In this document: positions 41,174 through 56,189 of the stretch, one piece after another | Layout of the letters: each line of letters starts with the position of its first letter | Position numbering within the stretch: the first letter of the stretch is position 1 | Source of the DNA: Armatimonadota bacterium | GTDB lineage: Bacteria > Armatimonadota > DTGP01 > JAKQQT01 | Direction: 5' to 3' | DNA length: 62,646 nt | Assembly: GCA_036504095.1 (NCBI GenBank) | Contig: DASXVS010000072.1 | Coordinates: 1-62,646 of the forward strand | Program-made: the position numbers and the translations under genes | Notes under the pieces: model-generated | Told to the model about the DNA's origin: nothing | Seen by the model: the letters and a program-made list of their open reading frames with translations, nothing else | The model's database searches: none

Positions 41174-41491
41174 TTACCACCACGAGTTCAGTCTTGCGAC
41201 TCTGTAAGCCGCCAGCAGTTCAAACCATTTCAGGTCGGGTTCCCGAACAGGTTCTTCGACATCATGCGGCCAGCGATATTCGCTGCGCGGCCCCGCTGCC
41301 ACCGCGAGTGCGACAGGCTCCGCGAGCCCCAGATTGGCGGTTGGCGCTACGAGACGGAATGGACCGCCCTGCGGAAGCGTCGTCGGACGGGACAGACGGT
41401 GTACGACACCGGTGCTTGTATTGAGATATGTTCCCCGAGGAGCGCAATGTCCGCCGGCAAACATTTGATCGGCTGTCATTTCCATAGCCAC
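41174..41491 (-). CDS. Small conserved-looking protein with strong ribosome-binding site
   Basis: 105 residues starting at GTG 41491 (the ATG two codons on is possible), with AAGGAG nine bases before the GTG. Sequence features: MFAGGHCAPRGTYLNTSTGVVHRLSRPTTLPQGGPFRL, with Cys/His near the N-terminus, and an acidic/aromatic tail EPDLKWFELLAAYRVARLNSWW. No signal peptide. I do not recognise the family. The good translation signal and balanced composition make it a real gene. A 13-bp palindrome (41590-41602) lies about 100 bases upstream. Neighbours are unrelated. Confidence 0.65.
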   Translation of the reverse strand: MAMEMTADQMFAGGHCAPRGTYLNTSTGVVHRLSRPTTLPQGGPFRLVAPTANLGLAEPVALAVAAGPRSEYRWPHDVEEPVREPDLKWFELLAAYRVARLNSWW

Positions 41492-41589
41492 GGTTTTTTT
41501 CTCCTTTCCAGTGACCTTTGTTCTACATATAAAGTTTACCCCACTGAGGGTTGCCGTATGTTTTCGTACGCGTTAACGTTAGGTTAATA

Positions 41590-43709: not shown

Positions 43710-44432
43710 TTACTGGTGGAGTTCCTTGTGGTCGCCGGTTTCCACGTAGTAGACCCGTTCACCAACGTTGGTGATGTGGTCGGCGATCCGCTCAAGACAC
43801 CGCGCGATCATGAGGAGGGCGATTGCCTGGGCCGCCATTGCCGGCGTGGCGCGCGCTGATTCGACCATGGCGTTGTGGATGGCCTTATTCAGGTGGTCGA
43901 CCTGGTCATCCTGCTCGATCATGCGCTGAACCATGTCCAGATCGCCGTTCACAAAGGCCTGCAACGTCTCGCGGAGCATCTGGCTGACCATCAGCGCCAT
44001 TTCCTGAAGCTCCGGAGTGGGCGGCAGGGGCGGAAGGTCAAAATTGCGGGATGCCGTCTTTGCGATATCGACGCAATAGTCACCGATGCGTTCGATATCG
44101 GTGATGATTTTCAGGGCGGCGGCGATGACCCGAAGGTCCCTCGCCATCGGGTTCTGGAGGGCCAGAAGATGAAGGCAGTCGGTTTCGATGCTCAGATTAT
44201 AGTCATCGACGGCATCGTCCTGGGCCATTACCTCGCGGACAAGTTCCGGGTCACGCTGGCGATATGCCGCAATGGACTTGTGGAGCATTTCCTCGACCAC
44301 GCTGCCCATCCGAAGGACGTTTTGCTGAACGTCGTTGAGTTTTTTCTCGAATTGCACTCTTGGATTCGCCTTCTCTTCTTCCGGCATCATGGGCTCCTCT
44401 TCGACAATCATGGCGGCGCCATCTTCGTTCAT
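43710..44432 (-). CDS. phoU: Phosphate signalling protein PhoU
   Basis: 240 residues. Two PhoU helical repeats with the family motifs DDAVDDYNLSIETDCLHLLALQNPMARDLRVIAAALKIITDIERIGDYCVDIAK and, in the second half, DDQVDHLNKAIHNAMVESARATPAM..IALLMIARCLERIADHITNVGERVYYVETGD. These acidic helices bind metal and contact the PstB/PhoR complex to signal phosphate sufficiency. It is the last gene of the pst group, 56 bases after pstB. An N-terminal extension of about 15 acidic residues precedes the usual start. Confidence 0.96.
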   Translation of the reverse strand: MNEDGAAMIVEEEPMMPEEEKANPRVQFEKKLNDVQQNVLRMGSVVEEMLHKSIAAYRQRDPELVREVMAQDDAVDDYNLSIETDCLHLLALQNPMARDLRVIAAALKIITDIERIGDYCVDIAKTASRNFDLPPLPPTPELQEMALMVSQMLRETLQAFVNGDLDMVQRMIEQDDQVDHLNKAIHNAMVESARATPAMAAQAIALLMIARCLERIADHITNVGERVYYVETGDHKELHQ

Positions 44433-44488: not shown

Positions 44489-45367
44489 CTAGCCAAATCT
44501 GCCGGTGATATAGTCTTCTGTCCGCTTGTCTTCAGGATTCGTGAAGATGATGTCGCTGCGCCCGACCTCAATCAGTTCCCCCATCAGGAAGAAGCCGGTC
44601 CGATCGCTCACACGGGCCGCCTGCTGCATGTTGTGGGTTACGATGACGATCGCCAGCGTCTGTACGAGTTCACGCATCAGGTCTTCGATCTTCAGCGTAC
44701 TGATGGGGTCCAGGGCCGAGGCGGGTTCGTCCATCAGGAGGACTTCGGGTTCGACGGCCAGTACGCGAGCGATGCACAGCCGTTGCTGCTGCCCCCCCGA
44801 CAGCGACATCGCGCTGCTCTTCAATTTGTCCTTGGCCTCGTCCCAGAGCGCCGCGCTCCGGAGGCTGTTTTCCACGATGTCGTCCAGATCCGAACGGTTG
44901 GGCTTGCTGCGAAGCCGTGGTCCGTAAGCTACGTTGTCGTAAATGCTCATCGGGAAAGGATTAGGCCGTTGGAACACCATGCCCACGCGCGTCCGAAGAA
45001 GCACGGGGTCAATCTCGGCCCCGTAGATTTCCTCGTCGTCAAGCGTCACACGACCCGTAACGCGGCAGCCGTCCACGAGGTCGTTCATCCGGTTCAACGT
45101 TCGCAAAAATGTGCTTTTGCCACAGCCGGACGGGCCGATGAGCGCCAGTATCTCGCGGGCGCGAACATCGATATCCACGGCCTTCAGCGCCTGGGTAGAG
45201 CCGTAAAAGACGCCCATGTCGCGAGTGGTCATCCGGACGGGGTTGTCCGATTTGTCGATCTTCTCATTCAGGCTGGCAACGAGGCGCGGCATGCCGGCGG
45301 TCGCCTCGCTGACGGGTGATTCGAGGTTCATCAGTGTATGGGGTCTCTCTTCCATAGCGCTTGCCAT
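44489..45367 (-). CDS. pstB: Phosphate ABC transporter ATP-binding protein
   Basis: 292 residues from the ATG at 45367, chosen as it lies seven bases after the pstA stop; the frame opens earlier inside pstA. Walker [26 protein letters not shown]-loop [19 protein letters not shown], signature [43 protein letters not shown] and switch His in [25 protein letters not shown]. The NRMNDL and PNPFPMSI motifs are PstB-specific. It powers high-affinity phosphate uptake together with PstC/PstA and signals to PhoR through PhoU. An N-terminal tail of about 45 residues precedes the ABC core. Confidence 0.97.
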
Positions 45368-45374
45368 TGGGTGG

Positions 45375-46268
45375 TTACCAGTTCCTCTTCGCTCGCAGGC
45401 GCGACCTGATAATGATGGCGCCAAGATTGGTGAACAGAACGAGCAGCAGAAGTACCAGGGCAGTACCCCACTGGATAGACTGCGGGGCATCCGGCACCTG
45501 AGTCGCGATGATGTACAGATGATAGGGAAGAGCCATGATCGGCGACGACAGGCTGTGCGGCAAACCTTTCTGGTAAAACACCGCCGCAGTAAACAGGATA
45601 GGCGCGGTTTCTCCGGCGGCCCGGCCCACCCCGAGGATGGCTCCGGTCAGGATGCCGGGGAGCGCGCCGGGGAGCACTATGCGCCACACGGTCTGAAAAC
45701 GGGTTGCCCCCAGGCCCACGCTGGCCTCCCGGAAACTGGCCGGAACGGTTCGCAACGATTCCTCCGTGGCGGTGATGATCAGGGGCAATGTCAGGAGGGC
45801 CAGGGTGCAGGCTCCTGAAAGGATCGACACCTGGAACTTGAGGAGCAGAACAAATACTCCGTATCCAAAAAGCCCGTAAACGATGGATGGCACACCGGCC
45901 AGGTTCACGATGGCAAGGCGAATTATCCGTGTCAGCGGACCCTGTTTCGCGTATTCGGACAGGTAGATCGCACTCAGGATCCCGACCGGAAGGGCGATGA
46001 TAACCGTGCCGGCCACCAGGTACACGGTGCCCATAATGGCGGGGAAAATGCCGCCGGCGGTCATATGGTCGCGCGGCATGGCCGTGAGGAACTCCCAGGT
46101 CAGCGCCCGGCCGCCGCGCGCTATCAGTATCCAGACAATGGCTGTTACCGGCGCAACGATACACAGGGTTGCCACGGCGGTCAGCGCCACGGCGATGCTC
46201 TCCCCGATGCGCGGCTTGCCGCGCCGGATAGACCGCGGCGAGGTGATGGTTTCTTGCGTATCAACCAT
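45375..46268 (-). CDS. pstA: Phosphate ABC transporter permease PstA
   Basis: 297 residues from the ATG at 46268, which overlaps the end of pstC by eight bases. Six membrane helices; the EAA-type coupling loop is [52 protein letters not shown], the PstA form. [21 protein letters not shown] is the periplasmic part common to PstA. It forms the channel with PstC in the inner membrane. Full length and in order with pstC upstream and pstB downstream. Confidence 0.97.
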
Positions 46269-47184
46269 GTTTCGGCATCCTGTGCAGCGCCACATCGGCG
46301 ACCAGGTTGATCGCAAAAGTGATGACGAAAAGGCACAATCCGAGCATAAACAGAGCACTGTAGTGATGGCTGTACTGGACGGTTTCCCCCATCTCGGCCG
46401 CGATGGTCGCCGTCATGGTTCGCACAGGCTGAAGCAGCGTGTACGGGAGAACGTTAACCATCTTGCCGTCTATCATCTTTGTCTGCGCAAATGCGTTTCC
46501 CGTGACCATCAGTACCGTCATCGTTTCACCGATGGCCCGCCCCACGCCCAGCATCGTGGCGGCCACGATTCCAGGGCGTGCCGCCGGCAAGAGCACGCGC
46601 CAGACCGTCTGCCAGCGGGTGGCGCCCAGAGCCAGGCTCCCGCTCGCGTAGTCCTTTGGAACCGACGTAAGCGCGTCTTCCGCGATACTCACGATCGTCG
46701 GAAGGGCCATGAAGGCCAGCATGATGCTACCGGTGAGGGCGACGGACCCGCTCTCCAGGTGGAAAAACTTTTGCAGGAACGGGCCAAGCGTGACAAGGCC
46801 GATGAATCCCACAACAACCGACGGCACCGCCGCGACCATCTCAATGGACGGCTTCAGAAATTCGCGGAGCCGCGCCGGCGCGATGATGGCGACGTACACC
46901 GCAGCCGCCACTCCGATGGGTATCGCGAAAGCAACGGCGCCGACCGTGACCAGCGCGGACCCAATGATAAGCGGCAGAAAGCCGAACTTTCCGTCGGTGG
47001 GATACCATTCAGACCCGCTGAGCAGCGCGCCGAGACTCGTGGTCCTCAACAGCGGGAGGGCATCCCGCAAAAGGAACACGAAAATCAGGATGACCAGGAT
47101 GATCGCAGTGACGCCGGCCATGCGGATGACCGCCTCGGCGGCGCGTTCGGACAACCTGCGATGTAGTGGAAAAGCCATTAGCAT
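46261..47184 (-). CDS. pstC: Phosphate ABC transporter permease PstC
   Basis: 307 residues from the ATG at 47184 (MLMAFPLHRRLSERAAEAV); an earlier in-frame codon is inside the hairpin. Six helices; the coupling loop is KDYASGSLALGATRWQTVWRVLLPAARPGIVAATMLGVGRAIGETMTVLMVTGNA, diagnostic for PstC. GSEWYPTDGKFGFLPLIIGSALVT is the typical periplasmic region. No ribosome-binding site is visible; a G/C hairpin (47198-47220) lies just before it, and the two sit downstream of pstS. Confidence 0.96.
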   Translation of the reverse strand: MLMAFPLHRRLSERAAEAVIRMAGVTAIILVILIFVFLLRDALPLLRTTSLGALLSGSEWYPTDGKFGFLPLIIGSALVTVGAVAFAIPIGVAAAVYVAIIAPARLREFLKPSIEMVAAVPSVVVGFIGLVTLGPFLQKFFHLESGSVALTGSIMLAFMALPTIVSIAEDALTSVPKDYASGSLALGATRWQTVWRVLLPAARPGIVAATMLGVGRAIGETMTVLMVTGNAFAQTKMIDGKMVNVLPYTLLQPVRTMTATIAAEMGETVQYSHHYSALFMLGLCLFVITFAINLVADVALHRMPKHG

Positions 47185-47197
47185 TCGAAGCGGTTGC

Positions 47198-47220
47198 GTG
47201 GGGGGGGAAGCCCCCCCCAC
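47198..47220 (-). promoter_or_regulatory. Perfect G/C hairpin between pstS and pstC
   Basis: GTGGGGGGGG and its perfect complement (10 bp, loop of three bases, AAG on the plus strand) lie nine bases after the pstS stop and 13 before the pstC start. It lacks a U-tract, so it is not a standard terminator. It could stabilise the pstS mRNA end and lower pstCAB expression, a known way to obtain excess binding protein. Confidence 0.65.
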
Positions 47221-47229
47221 ATAGACCGG

Positions 47230-48117
47230 CTATTTCACGGGGACGAACTCCAGCTTGGTGACCACGCTTTGCCCTTCCGGGCTCAGCACGAAGTCAATGA
47301 ACTGCTTCTCCTCACCGGTCGGTTCGCCTTTGGTGTAGAAGAAGAGCGGGCGCGAAACCGGGTAGGTCTTGTCCAGCACGGACTTGATCGAGGGAGTGAC
47401 ATACGGGCCGGCGGCCGTCCTGGCCACGGATACCACCTTGATACCCGCCGACTTCGCGTACCCCAGCCCCACATATCCAATGGCGCCAGGATTCGTCTTC
47501 ACCTCCTGAACGATCGCCTGCGACGACTGCTGCTGCTGAGCGGACGGCGCGTATTGGATAGCGGTGTTTTTCTCGTCGCCGTTGCGCAATACGTGATTCA
47601 GGAAGAAATCGTAGCTGCCGGAACTCTTGTCGCGGCTCACTATCGTGATCTTGCCGGATGGTCCGCCGACGGCACTCCAGTCGGAGACTTTTCCGGAGAA
47701 GATATCGCCGAGTTGGGCAAAGGTGAGTTTGGCGATGGGGCTCTTCTCGTTGACGATCACGCTCAAGCCGTCCTGGGCCACCACGATTTCCTTCGGGGTA
47801 AACCCTTTGGCCTTGGCGGCCTCAATCTCGGCCGGCTTCATAGCGCGTGACGATTCGGCGATGTCCGTTGTGCCCCCAAGGAGCGCCGTGATACCGGTGC
47901 CGGAACCGCCGCCCTGCACGGAAACCGAGGGGCTGCCAGCCTTCTTGCCGAACTCTTCGGCCCACGCCTGCCCCAGATTGACCATCGTGTTGGAACCGGC
48001 CACCGTGATGCCGCCGGCGGCGGGCGCAGGGCCGGAGGACGGCGTCTTATTACCGCAACCGGCAGCCAGCATAACGGCTGTCGAAGCCAGCCCGGCGATC
48101 AGGTACTGTCGTTTCAT
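47230..48117 (-). CDS. pstS: Phosphate-binding lipoprotein PstS
   Basis: 295 residues with a lipobox (LAAGC, about residue 21) and the PstS pattern: ITVAGSNTMVNLGQAWAEEF, VQGGGSGTGITALLGGTTDIAESSRAM, IVSRDKSSGSYDFF, NPGAIGYVGLGYA. The GSN and SGS/SSGS(Y/T) loops bind phosphate. It captures phosphate outside the inner membrane for PstCAB. A ribosome-binding site AAGGAG lies eight bases upstream, and a Pho box is about 52 bases upstream. A second homologue lacking a lipobox lies at 52432. Confidence 0.96.
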   Translation of the reverse strand: MKRQYLIAGLASTAVMLAAGCGNKTPSSGPAPAAGGITVAGSNTMVNLGQAWAEEFGKKAGSPSVSVQGGGSGTGITALLGGTTDIAESSRAMKPAEIEAAKAKGFTPKEIVVAQDGLSVIVNEKSPIAKLTFAQLGDIFSGKVSDWSAVGGPSGKITIVSRDKSSGSYDFFLNHVLRNGDEKNTAIQYAPSAQQQQSSQAIVQEVKTNPGAIGYVGLGYAKSAGIKVVSVARTAAGPYVTPSIKSVLDKTYPVSRPLFFYTKGEPTGEEKQFIDFVLSPEGQSVVTKLEFVPVK

Positions 48118-48169: not shown

Positions 48170-48199
48170 CGCTTAAGGCGGTATTAACGTTGCCTTAAG
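48170..48199 (-). promoter_or_regulatory. Pho box upstream of pstS
   Basis: Three TTAA cores at plus-strand positions 48073+100 (48173), 48184 and 48195 repeat with an exact 11-bp period. Read on the minus strand: CTTAAGGC, three bases, GTTAATAC, three bases, CTTAAGCG. This is the cyanobacterial-type Pho box (8-bp repeats, 3-bp gaps). It starts 11 bases after phoB stops and ends 52 bases before the pstS ATG. Confidence 0.8.
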
Positions 48200-48210
48200 G
48201 AGCGCTTGCG

Positions 48211-48903
48211 TTAGTCTGCGGCCTTATACCCCACCCCGCGTACCGTCAGAATGCGCTTCGGGGCGCCGGGGTCCAGCTCCACCTTCTGGCGGAGCCAGCG
48301 GATGTGCACGTCGAGGGTACCGCGATCCAGGAAGGTATCCCCGCCCCACACGCGGTCCAGCAGAATCTCGCGGGTTAGCACGCGGCCGCGGTTCCGAAGC
48401 AGAATCTCCAACAGGTCCCATTCCTTGGGGCTCAGGAGCGTCTGGACACCGCTGACCGTGAGTTCGTGGCGCGCGATATCCATCGATAGCCCCTCCGCGG
48501 TTAGAATCTCGTCCGCGGTGGCGGGCTGTCCGGTTCTGCGCAGAATCGCGCGCACCCGAGCTACGACTTCGCGGGTTGAAAAGGGCTTGGACACATAGTC
48601 GTCCGCACCGAGTTCGAGACCGAGCACGCGATCGAACTCTTCGGCGCGAGCGGTGAGGATGAGTATGGGCAGCGTCGAACTCTTTCGGACCGCCCGGCAG
48701 ACCTCCCAGCCGGACACGCCGGGCAGCATGAGGTCCAAAATGATCAGGCTGGGTGGGCGGGAGCGGACGACCGCCAGCCCCGCTTCACCGTCTGCGGCGG
48801 TTTCCACCAGGAAACCTTCCTGGCGCAACGCCCACGCGACGCCATCCGCGATCGCTTGCTCGTCTTCGATGATGAGAATGGTTTCAGACATAATTCGGCT
48901 CAT
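48211..48903 (-). CDS. phoB: PhoB-type response regulator
   Basis: 230 residues. Receiver with ED (near 13-14), phospho-Asp in LIILDLMLPGVSGWEVC, Thr in ILTARAEEFDR and Lys in SKPF; then an OmpR/PhoB winged helix (LSMDIARHELTVSGVQTLLSPKEWDLLEILLRNRGRVLTREILLDRVWG...RTLDVHIRWLRQKVE...RILTVRGVGYKAAD). It overlaps the end of phoR by four bases (ATGA), so the two are translated together; an internal ATG (48891) is an alternative start. It is expected to bind the Pho boxes seen here when phosphate is low. Confidence 0.95.
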   Translation of the reverse strand: MSRIMSETILIIEDEQAIADGVAWALRQEGFLVETAADGEAGLAVVRSRPPSLIILDLMLPGVSGWEVCRAVRKSSTLPILILTARAEEFDRVLGLELGADDYVSKPFSTREVVARVRAILRRTGQPATADEILTAEGLSMDIARHELTVSGVQTLLSPKEWDLLEILLRNRGRVLTREILLDRVWGGDTFLDRGTLDVHIRWLRQKVELDPGAPKRILTVRGVGYKAAD

Positions 48904-50261
48904 TGGGGCGCCACGGGGAGGCGCACGGTGAATACGGATCCGCGACCCGGAGTACTGTCCACTTCTACGCCTCCGCCGGCGGTTTCCGCGAGATGTTTGA
49001 CAATGCTGAGGCCCAGGCCCGTGCCGCCCAGTTCTCTGGAGCGCGCGCGGTCCACCCGGTAAAATCGCTCGAATATCCGCGTTTGGTGCTCGGGCGGGAT
49101 CCCGATCCCGTGATCCGTAACGCGAACCTCTACAAAACCGCCGCTTTCTCTGCCGGACACTTCAACCGCTCCCCCGGACGGCGAGTATTTTACGGCGTTT
49201 TCCACGAGGTTGGTGATGATTTGCCGCACGGCTTCTGGGGTAGCGAACGCGCGGAGCATGTGCGGGACCGTCACCAATATCCGGATGTCCTTCGCCTCGC
49301 GAAGGTGCTCCAGTTCGTTCGCCACTTCGGAGGCGATCGAGCTGACGTCAACAGCCTCGAAGGACAGCGGCTGGCCGGATTCGGCGCGTGCCAACACCAG
49401 CAGATCGCCCAGCAACGCCACGAGCCGCCTCGTGGAGTCGAGGATGTGTTTCAGGAAATGCCGGGCAACCGTTGGATCGTCCAGCGCGCCGTCGAGGAGA
49501 TTCTCCGCCATCGTCTGAATCCCGGAAACCGGGGTCCTGAGCTCATGGCTCACGTTGGCGACGAAGTCTTTGCGCACCCGTTCCAGGTGAACGCGATCCG
49601 TGATGTCGTGAAGAACCGCCACGGCTGCCTGTGACGGCCCTTCACCGGCGGCACTCACGACGGCACGAATCTGGCGAGGGTTCGGGAACAGGAGCTCAAT
49701 GTCGGTGTAGTGTGTTGCGCCGGAATCCAGCGCACGGTGGATAGCGGCGTCGAGTGGCGCACTCATCGTGCATTCGATGACGGTTCTCCCACTAGAGTCG
49801 GGACCGCATTCCTCGAAGAGTCCCCGGGCGGCCCTGTTCACCATTTGAACCCGGGCAGCGCGATCCACCACCAGCACTCCGTCGGCCATCGTGTCCATGA
49901 CGGCCTGCAGATGCGCTCGCTCGGATTCCGCGCGCTCGGCTCTCTCGTTCGCGGACGAAAGGAGCCCGGAGAAGGTCTCGGCCAGGTCCTTCCATTCGTC
50001 ACGAGAAGCGACGCGCGGCCCGCGGGCGGAAGGCCTGCGAGACCACTCCAGCAACGCTTCCAGCGGAGCGCCCACCCGCGCCGAGACCCACCATGCGCCG
50101 GCGATCCCTACAACGGCCACGACGGCAATGGCGCCGTACAACCCCATAGCGAGATCCGCAATGAGCGCCGCGCCGGCGGCTGCCAATGTCAGAGCAAGCA
50201 CGCTCGCGAATACCATCCAGCGTATCGAGTGGAAGAGGCGCATAGGGTGAATCCGATTCAA
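48900..50261 (-). CDS. phoR: PhoR-type sensor histidine kinase
   Basis: 453 residues. Two N-terminal membrane helices with almost no periplasmic loop (typical PhoR), a HAMP-like linker, a PAS domain (about 120-225: MDTMADGVLVVDRAARVQMVNRAARGLF), HisKA with VRKDFVANVSHELRTPVSGIQTMAENLLDGA, and HATPase_c with NLVENAVKYSP, TDHGIGIPPEHQTRIFERFYRVD and GTGLGLSIVKHL. Starts at TTG 50261 or ATG 50243; neither has a clear ribosome-binding site, but it lies five bases after the lipoprotein gene, suggesting coupling. Phosphorylates PhoB at low phosphate; PhoU/PstB restrain it. Confidence 0.94.
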   Translation of the reverse strand: MNRIHPMRLFHSIRWMVFASVLALTLAAAGAALIADLAMGLYGAIAVVAVVGIAGAWWVSARVGAPLEALLEWSRRPSARGPRVASRDEWKDLAETFSGLLSSANERAERAESERAHLQAVMDTMADGVLVVDRAARVQMVNRAARGLFEECGPDSSGRTVIECTMSAPLDAAIHRALDSGATHYTDIELLFPNPRQIRAVVSAAGEGPSQAAVAVLHDITDRVHLERVRKDFVANVSHELRTPVSGIQTMAENLLDGALDDPTVARHFLKHILDSTRRLVALLGDLLVLARAESGQPLSFEAVDVSSIASEVANELEHLREAKDIRILVTVPHMLRAFATPEAVRQIITNLVENAVKYSPSGGAVEVSGRESGGFVEVRVTDHGIGIPPEHQTRIFERFYRVDRARSRELGGTGLGLSIVKHLAETAGGGVEVDSTPGRGSVFTVRLPVAPQ

Positions 50262-50266
50262 TACAC

Positions 50267-50665
50267 TTACTTGCAGTGCAGGTTGGCCTTCATACCGTGG
50301 GTGAATTCGTTATCCTTCACGAAATCCGTCAGGCTGAAGTCGCCGGACGGAACCGACAGTGTCAGGTCTGTCGATGCGCCGGGCTCGAGCCGCGGCGTTT
50401 TGCGATCTACGGATGGCCCCTCAAGATAAATCCCGTGCGGTTGTTTCCCGGTGTTGCGCATCTTCAGGGTAACGGTGCCGGCTTGGACCGCGGCGGGCTC
50501 CACCGTGATATTCCATTCCTTAATTGTAACCGTTACGGTAGCTCCTGAACCTGCTACCAGGGCCGCGGGCGCCGCTGAATTCGATGGCCCCGAGCCCACG
50601 GGCTTGCCGCAGCCCGCCAATCCAAACGTCAGCCCTGCAAGGGCTATCAATGTGCGTGACTTCAT
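50267..50665 (-). CDS. Cupredoxin-like lipoprotein at the head of the pho operon
   Basis: 132 residues with a lipobox (LAGCG, about 16-20), then a small beta-sandwich: TVTVTIKEWNITVEPAAVQAGTVTLKMRNTGKQPHGIYLEG and a C-terminal end DFVKDNEFTHGMKANLHCK. The opening matches cupredoxin-like proteins (type I copper fold), with a His in QPHG, but the complete set of Cu ligands (His, Cys, His, Met in order) is not obvious. The stop is five bases from phoR and the Pho box at 50736 lies about 70 bases before its start, so it is probably part of the phosphate-starvation response. Role unknown. Confidence 0.7.
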   Translation of the reverse strand: MKSRTLIALAGLTFGLAGCGKPVGSGPSNSAAPAALVAGSGATVTVTIKEWNITVEPAAVQAGTVTLKMRNTGKQPHGIYLEGPSVDRKTPRLEPGASTDLTLSVPSGDFSLTDFVKDNEFTHGMKANLHCK

Positions 50666-50735
50666 ATCTTCTTAACTCTCCTTCGCACCTTATCGTGCGG
50701 CGGGAAACGCCCGAATGGCAACGGCATGCAGGCGC

Positions 50736-50766
50736 TTTAACCATGCGTTAATGCTATCTGAATACA
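50736..50766. promoter_or_regulatory. Pho box between the divergent pho arms
   Basis: TTAA at 50737 and 50748, and TGAA at 50759, repeat with an 11-bp period (units TTTAACCA, GTTAATGC, CTGAATAC with 3-bp gaps). A further TTAA at 50769 is one base out of phase. The element lies between the lipoprotein-phoR-phoB operon (minus) and the porin-pstS2 pair (plus) and could control both. Confidence 0.7.
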
Positions 50767-50870
50767 CCTTAAGACGTCCGCAAGACTCCCAAAAGGTGGG
50801 CCCCATAGGGTTAAGGGCAGGGGCCACACCATTTTCTACCGGCTCCCCCACCCCTCAAAAGGAGACGAAC

Positions 50871-52406
50871 TTGAGGAAGTACGCTACTATTGCGGCGCTG
50901 ACGCTAGGGGCAGCTCTGTTCCGGCCGGCGCTGGCGCAAACGAGCGACGTTGCGCCCGATCACTGGGCCTACAAGGCGGTTCAGGATCTTGCATCCAAGG
51001 GGCTTGTTCTGGGATACCCGGACGGCAAATTCCTGGGCCCGCGGACACTCACCCGCTACGAAATGGCAGCCATCGTCAAGCGCGTTGTGGACCGGCTGGA
51101 AAACAAGCCCGAACCCACAACCCCCGCCGTAACACCGACAACGCCCGCCCCGCCCCCCCCGTCGGCATCACCGGAGGACCTTGCCGAAGTCCGCAGACTC
51201 GTTGAGGAATACAAGACAGAGTTGACGGTGTTGGGCACGGACCTGGCCGGCATCAAGACGCGGCTCGACGATCAGGACGGCAAGCTCACAGCGCTTGAGG
51301 AAGCCATCAACGATCCTGAAGGCCCCGTTCAGGCAACCGCCACCGACGTGGCCGGCCTGAAGAAACTGGCGATCACCGGGTTCACCCAGTTCTGGGGGCA
51401 GACCCGCTCCGACAGCAAGAGCGGTATTCAGCCCGGCGGAGTTCAGGGCAACTACGATGGTTTCGTGATGCGCCGCGCCCGCCTGAAAGCAACCTACACC
51501 GCACGCGACAATAACCAGTATGTGCTGCAACTTGCCGCTGACCGAGGCAACGCGGTGACTATGCGCGACGCCTACATGTCTTTCCCCCTGAAGCGCGCCA
51601 CCAGCCTGGACCAGCCCCTCACCCTGACGGCCGGCCAGTTCAACATTCCGTTCGGATATGAGATTGGCCAGAGCGACACGGATCGCGAATTCCCCGAGCG
51701 CAGCCGCGGCGAAGGCATCATTTTCAGCGGCGAACGCGACCGCGGCCTTCAGGTGAACGGCTCACTGGGCAATCGGGCCCTCCAGTACTGGCTCGGCGTC
51801 TTCAACGGCGGCGGGATCGGCGATACCGGTCCGACCACCTATGTTGACCAGAACTCCCACAAGGACCTTTCCGCGCGCCTCCTTTACGCTCCGCCAACAG
51901 GCACGCTGGAACTTGGCGTATCCGCTTACGCCGGTAAGTCCAACGATCCCAATGGAACATCCACCACGGCGGGCAAAGTGTACAGCGACCACGACCGGAC
52001 GCGCTATGGCGCCGAACTGCGCTTCTACGGTATTCCCGAAACCGCCATCAAGGGCGAATACGTCGTCGGCAAGCAGTATAACTCCTGGAACAACTCCACG
52101 TCCTCCAACTTCGATTCAACCAACTTCCGCTACTGGTACGGGCAGATAACCCGCAACATCGGGATGAAAACGGCCGTCGCCGTTCGCTACGACAGCTACG
52201 ACCCTAATACGAACGAACCGATCGCGGGCACCCCGTTGTCCAACTTCGTGGCCATTCCGACGCTGGGCTTCCTGGTTCAGCGCACGATCAACCCCAACAC
52301 CAAGTTCACGGTGGCTTACGAAATGCCGCGCCTGCCTGATCCCAAGAACGGGACGCCCAGGCCCAAACAGAACCTGCTTACCACTCAGTTCATGTTGAAG
52401 TTCTGA
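50871..52406 (+). CDS. SLH-domain outer-membrane porin, OprP/OprO-like
   Basis: 511 residues starting at TTG 50871, with AAAAGGAG six bases before it; no ATG is nearby. A signal peptide (about 1-22, ALA) precedes one SLH domain (DVAPDHWAYKAVQDLASKGLVLGYPDGKFLGPRTLTRYEMAAIVKRVVDRLE), a Pro-rich hinge (about 78-95) and a coiled-coil spacer (about 96-150). The C-terminal beta-barrel (about 165-511) matches Porin_O_P: FVMRRARLKATYTARDNN, LTLTAGQFNIPFGYEIGQSDTDREFPERSR, RTRYGAELRFYG, ending in Phe (TQFMLKF). SLH plus coiled coil plus barrel is an anchor layout used by cyanobacteria, Deinococcus and Armatimonadota. Its Pho box suggests phosphate or polyphosphate uptake. The linked pstS2 is 25 bases downstream. 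Confidence 0.88.
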   Translation: MRKYATIAALTLGAALFRPALAQTSDVAPDHWAYKAVQDLASKGLVLGYPDGKFLGPRTLTRYEMAAIVKRVVDRLENKPEPTTPAVTPTTPAPPPPSASPEDLAEVRRLVEEYKTELTVLGTDLAGIKTRLDDQDGKLTALEEAINDPEGPVQATATDVAGLKKLAITGFTQFWGQTRSDSKSGIQPGGVQGNYDGFVMRRARLKATYTARDNNQYVLQLAADRGNAVTMRDAYMSFPLKRATSLDQPLTLTAGQFNIPFGYEIGQSDTDREFPERSRGEGIIFSGERDRGLQVNGSLGNRALQYWLGVFNGGGIGDTGPTTYVDQNSHKDLSARLLYAPPTGTLELGVSAYAGKSNDPNGTSTTAGKVYSDHDRTRYGAELRFYGIPETAIKGEYVVGKQYNSWNNSTSSNFDSTNFRYWYGQITRNIGMKTAVAVRYDSYDPNTNEPIAGTPLSNFVAIPTLGFLVQRTINPNTKFTVAYEMPRLPDPKNGTPRPKQNLLTTQFMLKF

Positions 52407-52431
52407 GTCGAGCGGGCAACAGAAGGGAAAG

Positions 52432-53262
52432 ATGATGAAAGTCAACAAGATGATGATGGTCGCGGCAGGGTTTGCCGCCCTGACAATACCCGCGGTCGCC
52501 GGCGTCACGTTGAAGGGATCCGACACGATTCTGCCGCTGGCCCAGGCGCTGGCTGAACAATACCAGGCCAGTCACAAGAACGCCGATGTTTCGGTTACAG
52601 GCGGCGGGTCCGGGGTCGGAATCACCGCGCTGGTCAACGGCAACACCGACATCGCGGACGCCTCGCGGCCGATCCAACCGAAGGAGTATGACCAGGCGAA
52701 GGCCAAAGGATTCATCCCGAAGGCGACCCGGGTCGCCAAGGATGGCATCTGCGTCATCACCAATAAGAGCACCGGCGTCAACGAGCTGACCATGAAGCAG
52801 ATCGGCGGGATTTACTCCGGCCGCATCAGCAACTGGAAGGAAGTCGGCGGACCCAATCTGCGAATCGTCGTTGTCGGCCGCGACTCCTCTTCGGGCACCT
52901 ATGGCTTCTTCAAGGACACCCTGTTCCCCGGCCAGCCGTACCGGAGCGATATGCTGGCTATGCCGAGCAACAACGCGATCGCCCAGGTCGTCTCCCGCGA
53001 TGCCGGAGCGATCGGATACATCGGCCTCGCCTACTACGAGAAATGGTCCGGCAAGGTGAAGGCGGTTGCCGTAAAGGAAGGCGCCAAGGCGATCCTGCCC
53101 AGCACCGGCACCGTATCCGACGGCTCCTATCCGCTGTTCCGCTACCTGTTCATGGTGACGCGCGGCAGCGCATCGGGCGAAGTAGCCGATTTTCTGAAGT
53201 TCGCGCAGAGTTCCGAAGGCCAGAAGATCGTCTCCAAAGTCGGATACGTTCCGCTGAGATAA
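52432..53262 (+). CDS. Second PstS-like phosphate-binding protein
   Basis: 276 residues with a signal peptide (MMKVNKMMMVAAGFAALTIPAVAG) and no lipobox Cys, so probably soluble in the periplasm. The pattern VTLKGSDTILPLAQALAEQYQ, VTGGGSGVGITALVNGNTDIADASRPI, IVVVGRDSSSGTYGFFKD, DAGAIGYIGLAYYEKWS is PstS-like, with the phosphate-binding GSD and DSSSGT loops. It follows the porin gene by 25 bases and probably works with it, feeding PstCAB encoded on the other arm. Ends at a large hairpin. Confidence 0.93.
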   Translation: MMKVNKMMMVAAGFAALTIPAVAGVTLKGSDTILPLAQALAEQYQASHKNADVSVTGGGSGVGITALVNGNTDIADASRPIQPKEYDQAKAKGFIPKATRVAKDGICVITNKSTGVNELTMKQIGGIYSGRISNWKEVGGPNLRIVVVGRDSSSGTYGFFKDTLFPGQPYRSDMLAMPSNNAIAQVVSRDAGAIGYIGLAYYEKWSGKVKAVAVKEGAKAILPSTGTVSDGSYPLFRYLFMVTRGSASGEVADFLKFAQSSEGQKIVSKVGYVPLR

Positions 53263-53333: not shown

Positions 53334-56189
53334 TCAATCCCTCACCCCGATCGCGGCGAGCAGTTTCTCCAGGGCATTGAAGTCCACCGGTTTGACGAGG
53401 TGGTGCCGGAAGCCGGCTTCGCGCGATCTTCGCTGGTCGTCCTCCTGGCCGTATCCCGTTAGCGCCACCAGTGTGGCTTTTGGCAGCAGATGGTTCTCGC
53501 GGAGGCTCCTCGCGACCTCGTAACCATCTATTCCCTGCAGCCCGATGTCCATCAGCACGACGTCCGCGTCCGATGTCCGAGCGAGGGCCAACGCTGCCTG
53601 CCCGTCGTGTGCCAACTGGACCTCATAACCCCACAGCTCCAGGATCTCCGCGAGTGTGCGGGCAACGTCAAGGTTGTCCTCTACGAGCAGGATGCGGCGC
53701 CTGGCTGACCCCGTGGAGCGCCCTGGTTTGGCGGGCTGCGGTTGATCCGCCGGAGGCGAGCCCTGCACGGGAAGCCGGATGACAAACTCCGCACCTTTGC
53801 CGATACCTTCGCTCCGCGCCGTAACCGAGCCACCGTGCAACTGTACGAGGTTCTTCGCGACGGTCAGTCCGATGCCGAGACCGCGCTGGTCCCGATCCAG
53901 CGCCCTGTCCCCCTGCGCGAACAGGTCGAAGACGTTCTCCAGCATGTCCGCCGAAATACCCACGCCTGTGTCCTGAACGCGCACGATGCACTCCGGCCCT
54001 TCCCCGTCTACCGTCACCGCGATTCGCCCTCCGGGTTCCGTGTACTTGGCCGCATTGGAAAGGAGATTGGACAAAACCTGCGCCATCCGCACCGGGTCCG
54101 CCCAGACATACAACGGCAGTTCCGGCATGCGCACGTCGATCACGTGGCGGCGCGCATTGATCAGAGGCTGGGCGGTCTGGACCGCCTGGCTCACGATCGG
54201 GCGAATATCGATGTTTTCGCGTCGCAGTTCGATCTTGCCCTGAGTGATACGGGAAACATCAAGGAGGTCGTCAACGAGTCGGGCCATATGGTGCGTCTGC
54301 CGCTCGACGACCTCCAGCGTCCGCTGAAGCGACGGATCCGCGTTGCCATGCAAGCGGATCAATTCTCCCGCGTTCGAGATGGCCGCCAAGGGGTTCCGAA
54401 GCTCGTGGCCCAGCATCGCGAGAAACTCATTCTTCGCTGTGTCCGCGAGCTGAACTTTCTGGTACAGCCGTGCGTTGTCAACCGCAACGGACGCCCGTCT
54501 CGCGAGCTCGGTGGCCAGTTCTCGATCCGATTCCGTGAAGATGCGCTCCGACTCCGACGCCATGAAGGAGATGACGCCAAAGACCCGGCCGCGGGCTCGC
54601 AGCGGCACGGAAATCGCCGACAGCGGGTTGACGATGTGCCAGGCGTCTCGAAGACTGTCGTTGGCTTCAGCGGCGGCGACATCCGCATCCGTAATCTGCG
54701 GGCGAATGAGTGGGACGCCGGATTCGAGCACCGCCCGGACGGGGTGCGGAACGTGAGGAGGGGTCACGGCACTTCGCGCCAGTTCCTTCAGCGCCCGCTC
54801 TTTATCCGGATCGATATGGGCAAACGAGGTGATGTGGATGGCGTCCGCGTCATCCACCGTGTGAATAGTGCAGCAGTCCGCAAGGAACGGGACAGCGATG
54901 CGGGTCAGGTTATCCAGTGTCGTCGAGTAGTCCAGCGACGTCGCGAGCGTTTCGCTGGCTTCGACAAGGAATCGCAACGCCTGTTCGGCCCTCGTGCGCT
55001 CGGACATGTCCACCATCGAGCCGATCATCCGGATGGCGCGGCCCTGCGAGTCCCGCATGATATAGCTGCGGTCGAGGATGCTCGCCCACGTACCGTCCCC
55101 CCTCCGAAATCGGTATTCGCCGGACCAGTACGACCCGCCGCCGTTTACGGTCTGCCAGACCTGCTCTACAATCTGCTCACGGTCGTCCGGATGCGTCCCT
55201 TCGAACCACCACCGGCCATCGAGACTCGCGCTGCCGGGAGGATACCCGAGGACGGTTGTAACGGCGTTGCTGTGATGCAGCTTCCCCGTGAGCAAATCCC
55301 AGTCCCAGATAATATCATTGGTCGCGCGCTCCACGAGGCTATAACGCTCTTCGCTCTCTCGAAGCGCCTGCTCCGCCAACTTGCGCGCAGTGATGTCGAT
55401 ATTGACTCCGCGGACGCCCGCTTTGGAGCCATCTTCATCGTAGATGACGACGGATGTCGCCTCGATCCACACAACGCGGCCATCGCTGGCGATGCAGCGG
55501 AACTGGCTGACACCCCCATTCCCCGAGTTATACGAATCCCAGGCTTCACGCTGCGCTCGCTCGCGGTCGTCAGGGTGAACCAGGGTCACCCAGAAACCGT
55601 CCGGATCCAGCCATACGGCCGGCGGGTAGCCCAGCAAGCCTTCCGCGAAGGCGCTGACATAGTTGATCCGCTGCCGAGATTCGTCGGGCTCGTTCCAGAA
55701 TTCCCACACGATCGCCGGCACCCGCTCCAGGAGGTTGTCGAGCCTTTGCCGCTCTTTTCGAATCTGGTCAAACAGGATGCGGACGCCTTCTTCGGCGCGA
55801 GTCCGTTCGGTTACATCTTGCACGACCACAAACCGGGCGGGGCGGCCGGCATGGACGATACTGTGCGACGTAATCTCGACATCGAGGACACTACCGTCCT
55901 TGCGGCGATGGCGCCACTCGCCCTGCCGGATCGTTCTGGGATCGGTCGATGAGACGACCTTGAGCATGGCGGGAACGTCTTCGGGGGGGCGGATATCAGC
56001 GATGGTCATGCCCAGGAGCTCATCGCGCGTGTAGCCATACAGCCGGACCGTCGCTTCGTTCACCGACACAAACCGGAGCGATTCCTGGTCGTAGACGAAC
56101 ATCGGCGACGGGCTGTCGGCGAAGAAACGGGAGAACGGCCCTTCGGAGGCAGCGGAGACTTCGGTTTTTTGGGAATCGGATTGATCCAT
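53334..56189 (-). CDS. Large hybrid histidine kinase (three PAS, GAF, HisKA, HATPase, REC)
   Basis: 951 residues, soluble. PAS domains at about 20-130, 150-275 and 290-405 (the last two PAC-containing: VSQFRCIASDGRVVWIEAT, EYRFRRGDGTWASILDRSYIM), a GAF domain (about 415-590), HisKA (FLAMLGHELRNPLAAISNAGELI), HATPase_c (NLLSNAAKYTEPGGR, DTGVGISADMLENVF, GLGIGLTVAKNL), and a C-terminal receiver (about 830-945: LLVEDNLDVART, VVLMDIGLQGIDG, ALTGYGQEDD, VKPVDF). Such kinases integrate several signals, often light or redox; the ligand is unknown. Its receiver probably relays to an unlinked partner. Divergent with PEP carboxylase (164 bases). Confidence 0.93.
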   Translation of the reverse strand: MDQSDSQKTEVSAASEGPFSRFFADSPSPMFVYDQESLRFVSVNEATVRLYGYTRDELLGMTIADIRPPEDVPAMLKVVSSTDPRTIRQGEWRHRRKDGSVLDVEITSHSIVHAGRPARFVVVQDVTERTRAEEGVRILFDQIRKERQRLDNLLERVPAIVWEFWNEPDESRQRINYVSAFAEGLLGYPPAVWLDPDGFWVTLVHPDDRERAQREAWDSYNSGNGGVSQFRCIASDGRVVWIEATSVVIYDEDGSKAGVRGVNIDITARKLAEQALRESEERYSLVERATNDIIWDWDLLTGKLHHSNAVTTVLGYPPGSASLDGRWWFEGTHPDDREQIVEQVWQTVNGGGSYWSGEYRFRRGDGTWASILDRSYIMRDSQGRAIRMIGSMVDMSERTRAEQALRFLVEASETLATSLDYSTTLDNLTRIAVPFLADCCTIHTVDDADAIHITSFAHIDPDKERALKELARSAVTPPHVPHPVRAVLESGVPLIRPQITDADVAAAEANDSLRDAWHIVNPLSAISVPLRARGRVFGVISFMASESERIFTESDRELATELARRASVAVDNARLYQKVQLADTAKNEFLAMLGHELRNPLAAISNAGELIRLHGNADPSLQRTLEVVERQTHHMARLVDDLLDVSRITQGKIELRRENIDIRPIVSQAVQTAQPLINARRHVIDVRMPELPLYVWADPVRMAQVLSNLLSNAAKYTEPGGRIAVTVDGEGPECIVRVQDTGVGISADMLENVFDLFAQGDRALDRDQRGLGIGLTVAKNLVQLHGGSVTARSEGIGKGAEFVIRLPVQGSPPADQPQPAKPGRSTGSARRRILLVEDNLDVARTLAEILELWGYEVQLAHDGQAALALARTSDADVVLMDIGLQGIDGYEVARSLRENHLLPKATLVALTGYGQEDDQRRSREAGFRHHLVKPVDFNALEKLLAAIGVRD

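Follow-up and report, generated by a model that had tools for sequence, protein, structure and literature searches.

A predicted Pho regulon of an Armatimonadota bacterium joins an SLH-domain porin of the OprO/OprP type and two PstS proteins to a single PstCAB transporter

Related phosphate uptake and tether systems

The phosphate porins OprP and OprO of Pseudomonas are 16-strand barrels of the Porin_O_P family (PF07396), and OprP is Pho-regulated. In Flavobacterium johnsoniae, a Porin_O_P gene is similarly located in the phoBR operon, but this oprP is not induced on phosphate depletion and plant-associated strains are without a pst system (PMC8115612); thus, linkage to pho genes is not equivalent to induction. 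Porins may also serve as envelope tethers. OmpM is described as combining the functions of a tether with those of an uptake channel (PMC10628300), and SlpA-like proteins are reported from Armatimonadetes (PMC9388160). Of the cyanobacterial systems, SphX is an extra PstS-like protein that shares one Pst transporter (sphX-pstS-pstCAB), the SphR box consists of three 8-mers with 3-bp linkers (consensus CTTAACCT) (PMC1906773), and the phosphate-stress porin PhoE of Prochlorococcus is encoded with PstS (phoE-pstS) (PMC1906773, PMC3349580).

The Armatimonadota locus described here is predicted, with a probability of about 0.75, to be a complete Pho regulon core in which PhoB activates a pst arm, a phoRB arm and an SLH-porin-pstS2 arm, and in which two PstS proteins feed one PstCAB.

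Organization of the locus

The genome is 4.68 Mb and 98.6% complete (termed G000 in the comparisons), and the window, i.e., the whole stretch of 62,646 nucleotides that was analyzed, is its contig C72. The phoB, phoR, pstSCAB and phoU genes all reside within one locus. The minus strand, from 50665 down to 43710, encodes lipoprotein-phoR-phoB-pstS-pstC-pstA-pstB-phoU, while the plus strand (50871-53262) diverges from this arm and encodes the SLH/Porin_O_P porin followed by pstS2. The features are as follows.

43710-44432, minus strand: phoU; TIGR02135 match above cut-off
44489-45490, minus strand: pstB, ATPase; open reading frame with phmmer relatives found in pst loci, the real start probably lying inside it
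45375-46358, minus strand: pstA, permease; second TIGR02138 match (45399-46184 of C72), the real start probably lying inside the open reading frame
46261-47220, minus strand: pstC, permease; TIGR02138 match above cut-off
47230-48117, minus strand: pstS, phosphate-binding protein with lipobox LAAGC; TIGR02136 match above cut-off
48172-48201, minus strand: three-unit candidate Pho box before pstS; CTTAAGG..ATTAACG..CTTAAGG, period 11
48211-48903, minus strand: phoB, response regulator; Response_reg and Trans_reg_C domains, best NCBIfam name PhoB, under its cut-off
48900-50261, minus strand: phoR, histidine kinase with TTG start at 50261; two membrane segments, PAS, HisKA and HATPase
50267-50665, minus strand: lipoprotein with lipobox LAGC and one degenerate EfeO-type cupredoxin domain; weak Cupredoxin_1/EfeO match
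50736-50766, plus strand: three-unit candidate Pho box in the divergent gap; TTTAACCA-tgc-GTTAATGC-tat-CTGAATAC
50871-52406, plus strand: porin of SLH, helical linker and 16-strand Porin_O_P barrel; TTG start after AAAGGAG
52432-53262, plus strand: pstS2, phosphate-binding protein without lipobox; TIGR02136 match above cut-off, signal peptide

An earlier sequence-only reading had described a divergent Pho regulon that joins an SLH porin, a lipoprotein and a second PstS to pho/pst genes, and this arrangement is upheld: the lipoprotein gene, the first of the phoRB arm, is separated by five bases from the TTG start of phoR; pstS2 follows the porin gene after 25 bases; and the two Pfam domains of the porin and the TIGR02136 matches of both PstS proteins exceed their cut-offs. 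Convergent with pstS2 is a gene for a large hybrid PAS/GAF histidine kinase with a receiver domain (53334-56189).

Candidate Pho boxes

The two three-unit elements are predicted to be Pho boxes bound by PhoB. At the sequence level, both are direct repeats of period 11 that lie upstream of their presumed targets, as is typical of PhoB-type sites, and their three-unit architecture, 11-bp period and consensus match those of the cyanobacterial SphR box (PMC1906773). The core TTAA-n7-TTAA-n7-TTAA agrees in 12 of 12 TTAA letters before pstS (48173-48198) and in 11 of 12 in the divergent gap (50737-50762). The elements that had been picked out between the two arms and before pstS prove to be the only two sites of the whole 4.68-Mb genome that match this core with one mismatch or fewer, both within the Pho locus, with ~0.2 such sites expected by chance (first-order simulation of a genome of the same size). 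The boxes also recur before the pst, porin and pho genes of the phylum, consistent with the proposed PhoB-type regulon. In the loci of relatives and the window, the three-unit pattern is found 28 times (overlapping registers counted), chiefly ahead of pst, porin or pho genes, compared to 2 times in shuffled sequence. Of the 73 gaps in the phylum loci that lead into pst, porin or phoB genes, 24 contain an exact two-unit repeat, as do 9 of the 304 remaining gaps (Fisher p = 2e-12, a value that ignores shared ancestry). Several porin/pho gaps of G006 and G033 have no clear box.

At two mismatches, the genome-wide count is at chance level (11 sites compared to 21 for the reversed pattern and 4.4 simulated); therefore, these boxes were left unused, and a wider regulon across the genome was dropped as a candidate. 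A third, weaker TTAA repeat (10/12; 41562-41587), of a strength at chance level genome-wide, is upstream of a small minus-strand open reading frame (41174-41491) with a good ribosome-binding site. In G030, likewise a genome from Armatimonadota, near-perfect four-unit TTAA repeats (L155:4273-4319 and L155:6781-6826) flank a phoR-like kinase gene.

The SLH/Porin_O_P porin

The porin has an SLH and a Porin_O_P domain. In its structure model (built from 22 homologues; mean pLDDT 77.9), a signal helix and the SLH region are seen along with an extended helical segment and 16 strands. The porin-family profile matches the solved OprO with an E of 3e-7, in an alignment with too many gaps to place individual residues such as those of the OprP arginine ladder. 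By sequence, the porin is thus a homologue of the phosphate porins OprO/OprP, and it would be selective for phosphate. OprO, OprP and DcaP are among its fold neighbors, as is OmpM1, an SLH tether porin that ranks with the best matches; as such matches are a general porin signal, the fold alone is no proof of phosphate selectivity. Compared to Pseudomonas OprP/OprO, the homologous 16-strand barrel is retained, whereas the barrel here comes after an SLH anchor and a helical linker, and a pstS gene lies immediately downstream.

The porin/pho layout recurs in related bacteria. Many Armatimonadota encode full-length relatives of the porin next to pst/pho genes. In nine further loci of the phylum, pstS is the gene immediately after the porin, and the arrangement of the window (porin-pstS // phoB-phoR) is found again in G006. 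When a named-genome collection was scanned with a 5-sequence porin alignment, 25 loci had close relatives (porins of at least 85 bits), with pstS as the next gene in 19 and a pst/pho gene within three genes in 23, the phylum and named-genome surveys overlapping in the four loci L187, L188, L196 and L216, whose genomes are seen in both. These 25 loci are from Armatimonadota, Myxococcota, Zixiibacteriota, Eisenbacteria, Acidobacteriota, Edwardsbacteria and other phyla. Among the weaker relatives (<85 bits), pst/pho linkage is seldom seen. In the porin tree, the window porin is placed without support and the clade of porin-linked members is only partly resolved. The porin-pstS order kept across phyla, together with the OprO-like barrel, strongly supports the uptake route from the outside to PstCAB that the sequence-only reading had envisaged.

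Alternatively, the porin could be an SLH porin of the general or iron type, placed beside the pho genes by chance and with no phosphate-specific role. The nearest NCBIfam name is indeed 'iron uptake porin', matched under its cut-off and by the SLH region alone; the fold matches are generic porins, and the distant Porin_O_P relatives of Bacteroidota have other neighbors. Chance proximity is nonetheless improbable given that the same barrel type is tied to pstS and phoBR across phyla, including in forms that lack SLH, that the barrel is homologous to that of OprO, and that a candidate Pho box resides in the porin promoter region.

The SLH domain is found on 12 of 16 Armatimonadota porins (a set in which L214 is assigned by similarity) versus none of 18 porins that are mostly from other phyla (a set in which L207 groups with Armatimonadota porins likewise without SLH). 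The same genome encodes two full-length porins with SLH and no Porin_O_P match as well as two barrel relatives without SLH; thus, the pho porin is the sole SLH and Porin_O_P combination seen there. Its N-terminal SLH, helical linker and C-terminal barrel follow the layout of the OmpM/SlpA tether porins (PMC10628300, PMC9388160). By contrast to these porins, the barrel resembles OprO/OprP in sequence type, and a predicted Pho box would control the gene, which is beside pst/pho genes. While OmpM/SlpA tether porins are known, a predicted Pho-controlled form with an OprO/OprP-type barrel is new, and its SLH domain probably tethers the outer membrane to the wall.

Distant Porin_O_P homologs of Bacteroidota (L225-L228 and L234) are part of another conserved cassette, which has no pst genes and includes a lipoprotein-like gene (~340 aa) before the porin, a secreted protein (~283 aa) after it and a divergent gene (~230 aa).

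Two PstS proteins and one transporter

PstS and PstS2 score 259 and 258 bits, respectively, against the TIGR02136 cut-off of 206.6. PstS has a lipobox, while PstS2 has a plain secretion signal. Within the phylum, the lipobox is absent from all 11 porin-adjacent PstS proteins and present in 32 of the 43 others (p = 7e-6 with kinship ignored; L094, L095, L102, L106 and L113 assigned by eye, and the noisy or incomplete open reading frames L101 and L132 excluded). Six genomes (G000, G006, G030, G033, G045 and G053) have both kinds, and the porin-linked protein is always the one without a lipobox. A counterexample is L207, in which a porin is followed by a lipobox PstS. The PstS tree joins the porin-linked PstS of the window to its counterparts in G033, G006 and G045 at moderate support (86/72), and places the lipid-anchored PstS of the window in a group (99/99) that includes the anchored proteins of G001, G006 and G045; a single clade for the porin-linked members is only partly resolved.

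Profile searches identify one PstC/PstA pair in the G000 genome and, therefore, the two binding proteins share one transporter. An additional PstS-like protein with a single Pst transporter is also found in cyanobacteria (PMC1906773), and the pairing of a porin with PstS resembles phoE-pstS of Prochlorococcus (PMC1906773, PMC3349580). Unlike in cyanobacteria, the porin and PstS2 form a separate arm that is divergent from phoRB, and, of the two PstS proteins, the first is lipid-anchored and the second soluble. A division of labor may thus be envisioned, with PstS2 as soluble carrier and PstS as anchored receptor.

Model of the regulon

At low phosphate, PhoR would phosphorylate PhoB, which is predicted to bind the two three-unit boxes (before pstSCAB-phoU and in the divergent gap) and activate the pstSCAB-phoU, lipoprotein-phoRB and porin-pstS2 arms. 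The porin, as an OprO/OprP-type 16-strand channel fused to an SLH anchor, is expected to let phosphate in and, at the same time, to tether the outer membrane. Soluble PstS2 would capture phosphate throughout the periplasm, lipid-anchored PstS would stay at the inner membrane, and both would feed the single PstCAB. A broader proposal, offered tentatively and at somewhat less than even odds, is that the Pho regulon of Armatimonadota couples nutrient stress to envelope mechanics, with the induced phosphate channel doubling as SLH tether and soluble PstS relaying phosphate to anchored PstS for one PstCAB.

The model provides a concrete, testable Pho regulon, with a consensus for its boxes, in a diderm phylum that is mostly uncultured, and links OprO/OprP-type porins to pst operons over several deep-branching phyla. 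It suggests that a single regulated protein may unite tethering of the OmpM type with nutrient-specific uptake, a point of relevance to outer-membrane anchoring in this group, and the soluble/anchored PstS pair offers a simple hypothesis for how one ABC transporter uses two binding proteins.

PhoR and the lipoprotein

PhoR had been noted to have almost no periplasmic loop, and hydropathy agrees, with hydrophobic stretches at ~12-35 and ~37-63 that nearly adjoin. In E. coli, PhoR normally has just such a minimal loop, and the signal is carried by PstSCAB/PhoU. The tiny loop is thus ordinary, and PhoR most likely would sense phosphate via PstCAB/PhoU in the E. coli fashion.

The lipoprotein is best described, from its sequence, as a single EfeO-type cupredoxin domain. 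Its Cupredoxin_1/EfeO-Cup match is weak and under the Pfam cut-off, and the best curated match is the N-terminal cupredoxin domain of EfeO (PMC9174327). Unlike EfeO, it has no M75 domain or efeUB neighbors. Of the copper ligands (His, Cys, His and Met), the first His and the Met are kept, while the Cys and second His are replaced; with its type-1 site incomplete, the lipoprotein was rejected as a copper electron carrier. All four ligands are kept in the relatives L160 and L163.

The suggested role of the lipoprotein, that of giving PhoR a periplasmic input, is not supported by the comparison with relatives. A search for its co-occurrence with phoR in Armatimonadota revealed no conservation: a phoR-linked homologue was found neither in 291 phylum genomes nor in the named-genome collection scan, which is limited to close relatives. 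The wider Cupredoxin_1 matches, in 61 genomes, are never beside pho genes, the nearest being ~7 kb from the G002 porin. In G001, the only same-family genome compared, the lipoprotein gene is missing, the position before phoR is occupied by a CsrA-like gene, and the encoded PhoR is similarly almost devoid of a loop. On this distribution, the lipoprotein was rejected as a conserved PhoR partner.

A sensor that binds phosphate or metal and contacts the PhoR membrane helices might be expected from a gene placed first in the phoRB arm, five bases from a kinase with so little periplasmic loop of its own. Such a role is nevertheless highly improbable because phoR-linked homologues are absent from the genomes searched, a CsrA-like gene takes the place of the lipoprotein in G001, and a PhoR with minimal loop is ordinary. 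More probable than a sensor input is an accessory protein induced with the Pho genes, which may handle metals. The specific proposal of a metal- or iron-handling protein of the EfeO-cupredoxin kind, for which the place before phoR only confers phosphate regulation, is possible but doubtful: the curated EfeO match and the direct link of phosphate and iron supply by Synechocystis PhoB (PMC11126600) favor it, whereas two of the four copper ligands are lost and no efeU or efeB is seen beside the gene. The lipoprotein is more plausibly viewed as a lineage-specific accessory that would be co-expressed with the Pho genes than as a conserved input.

In G001 (L152:8269-10697), the CsrA-like gene before phoR-phoB overlaps it, which hints at a translational regulator placed with phoBR.
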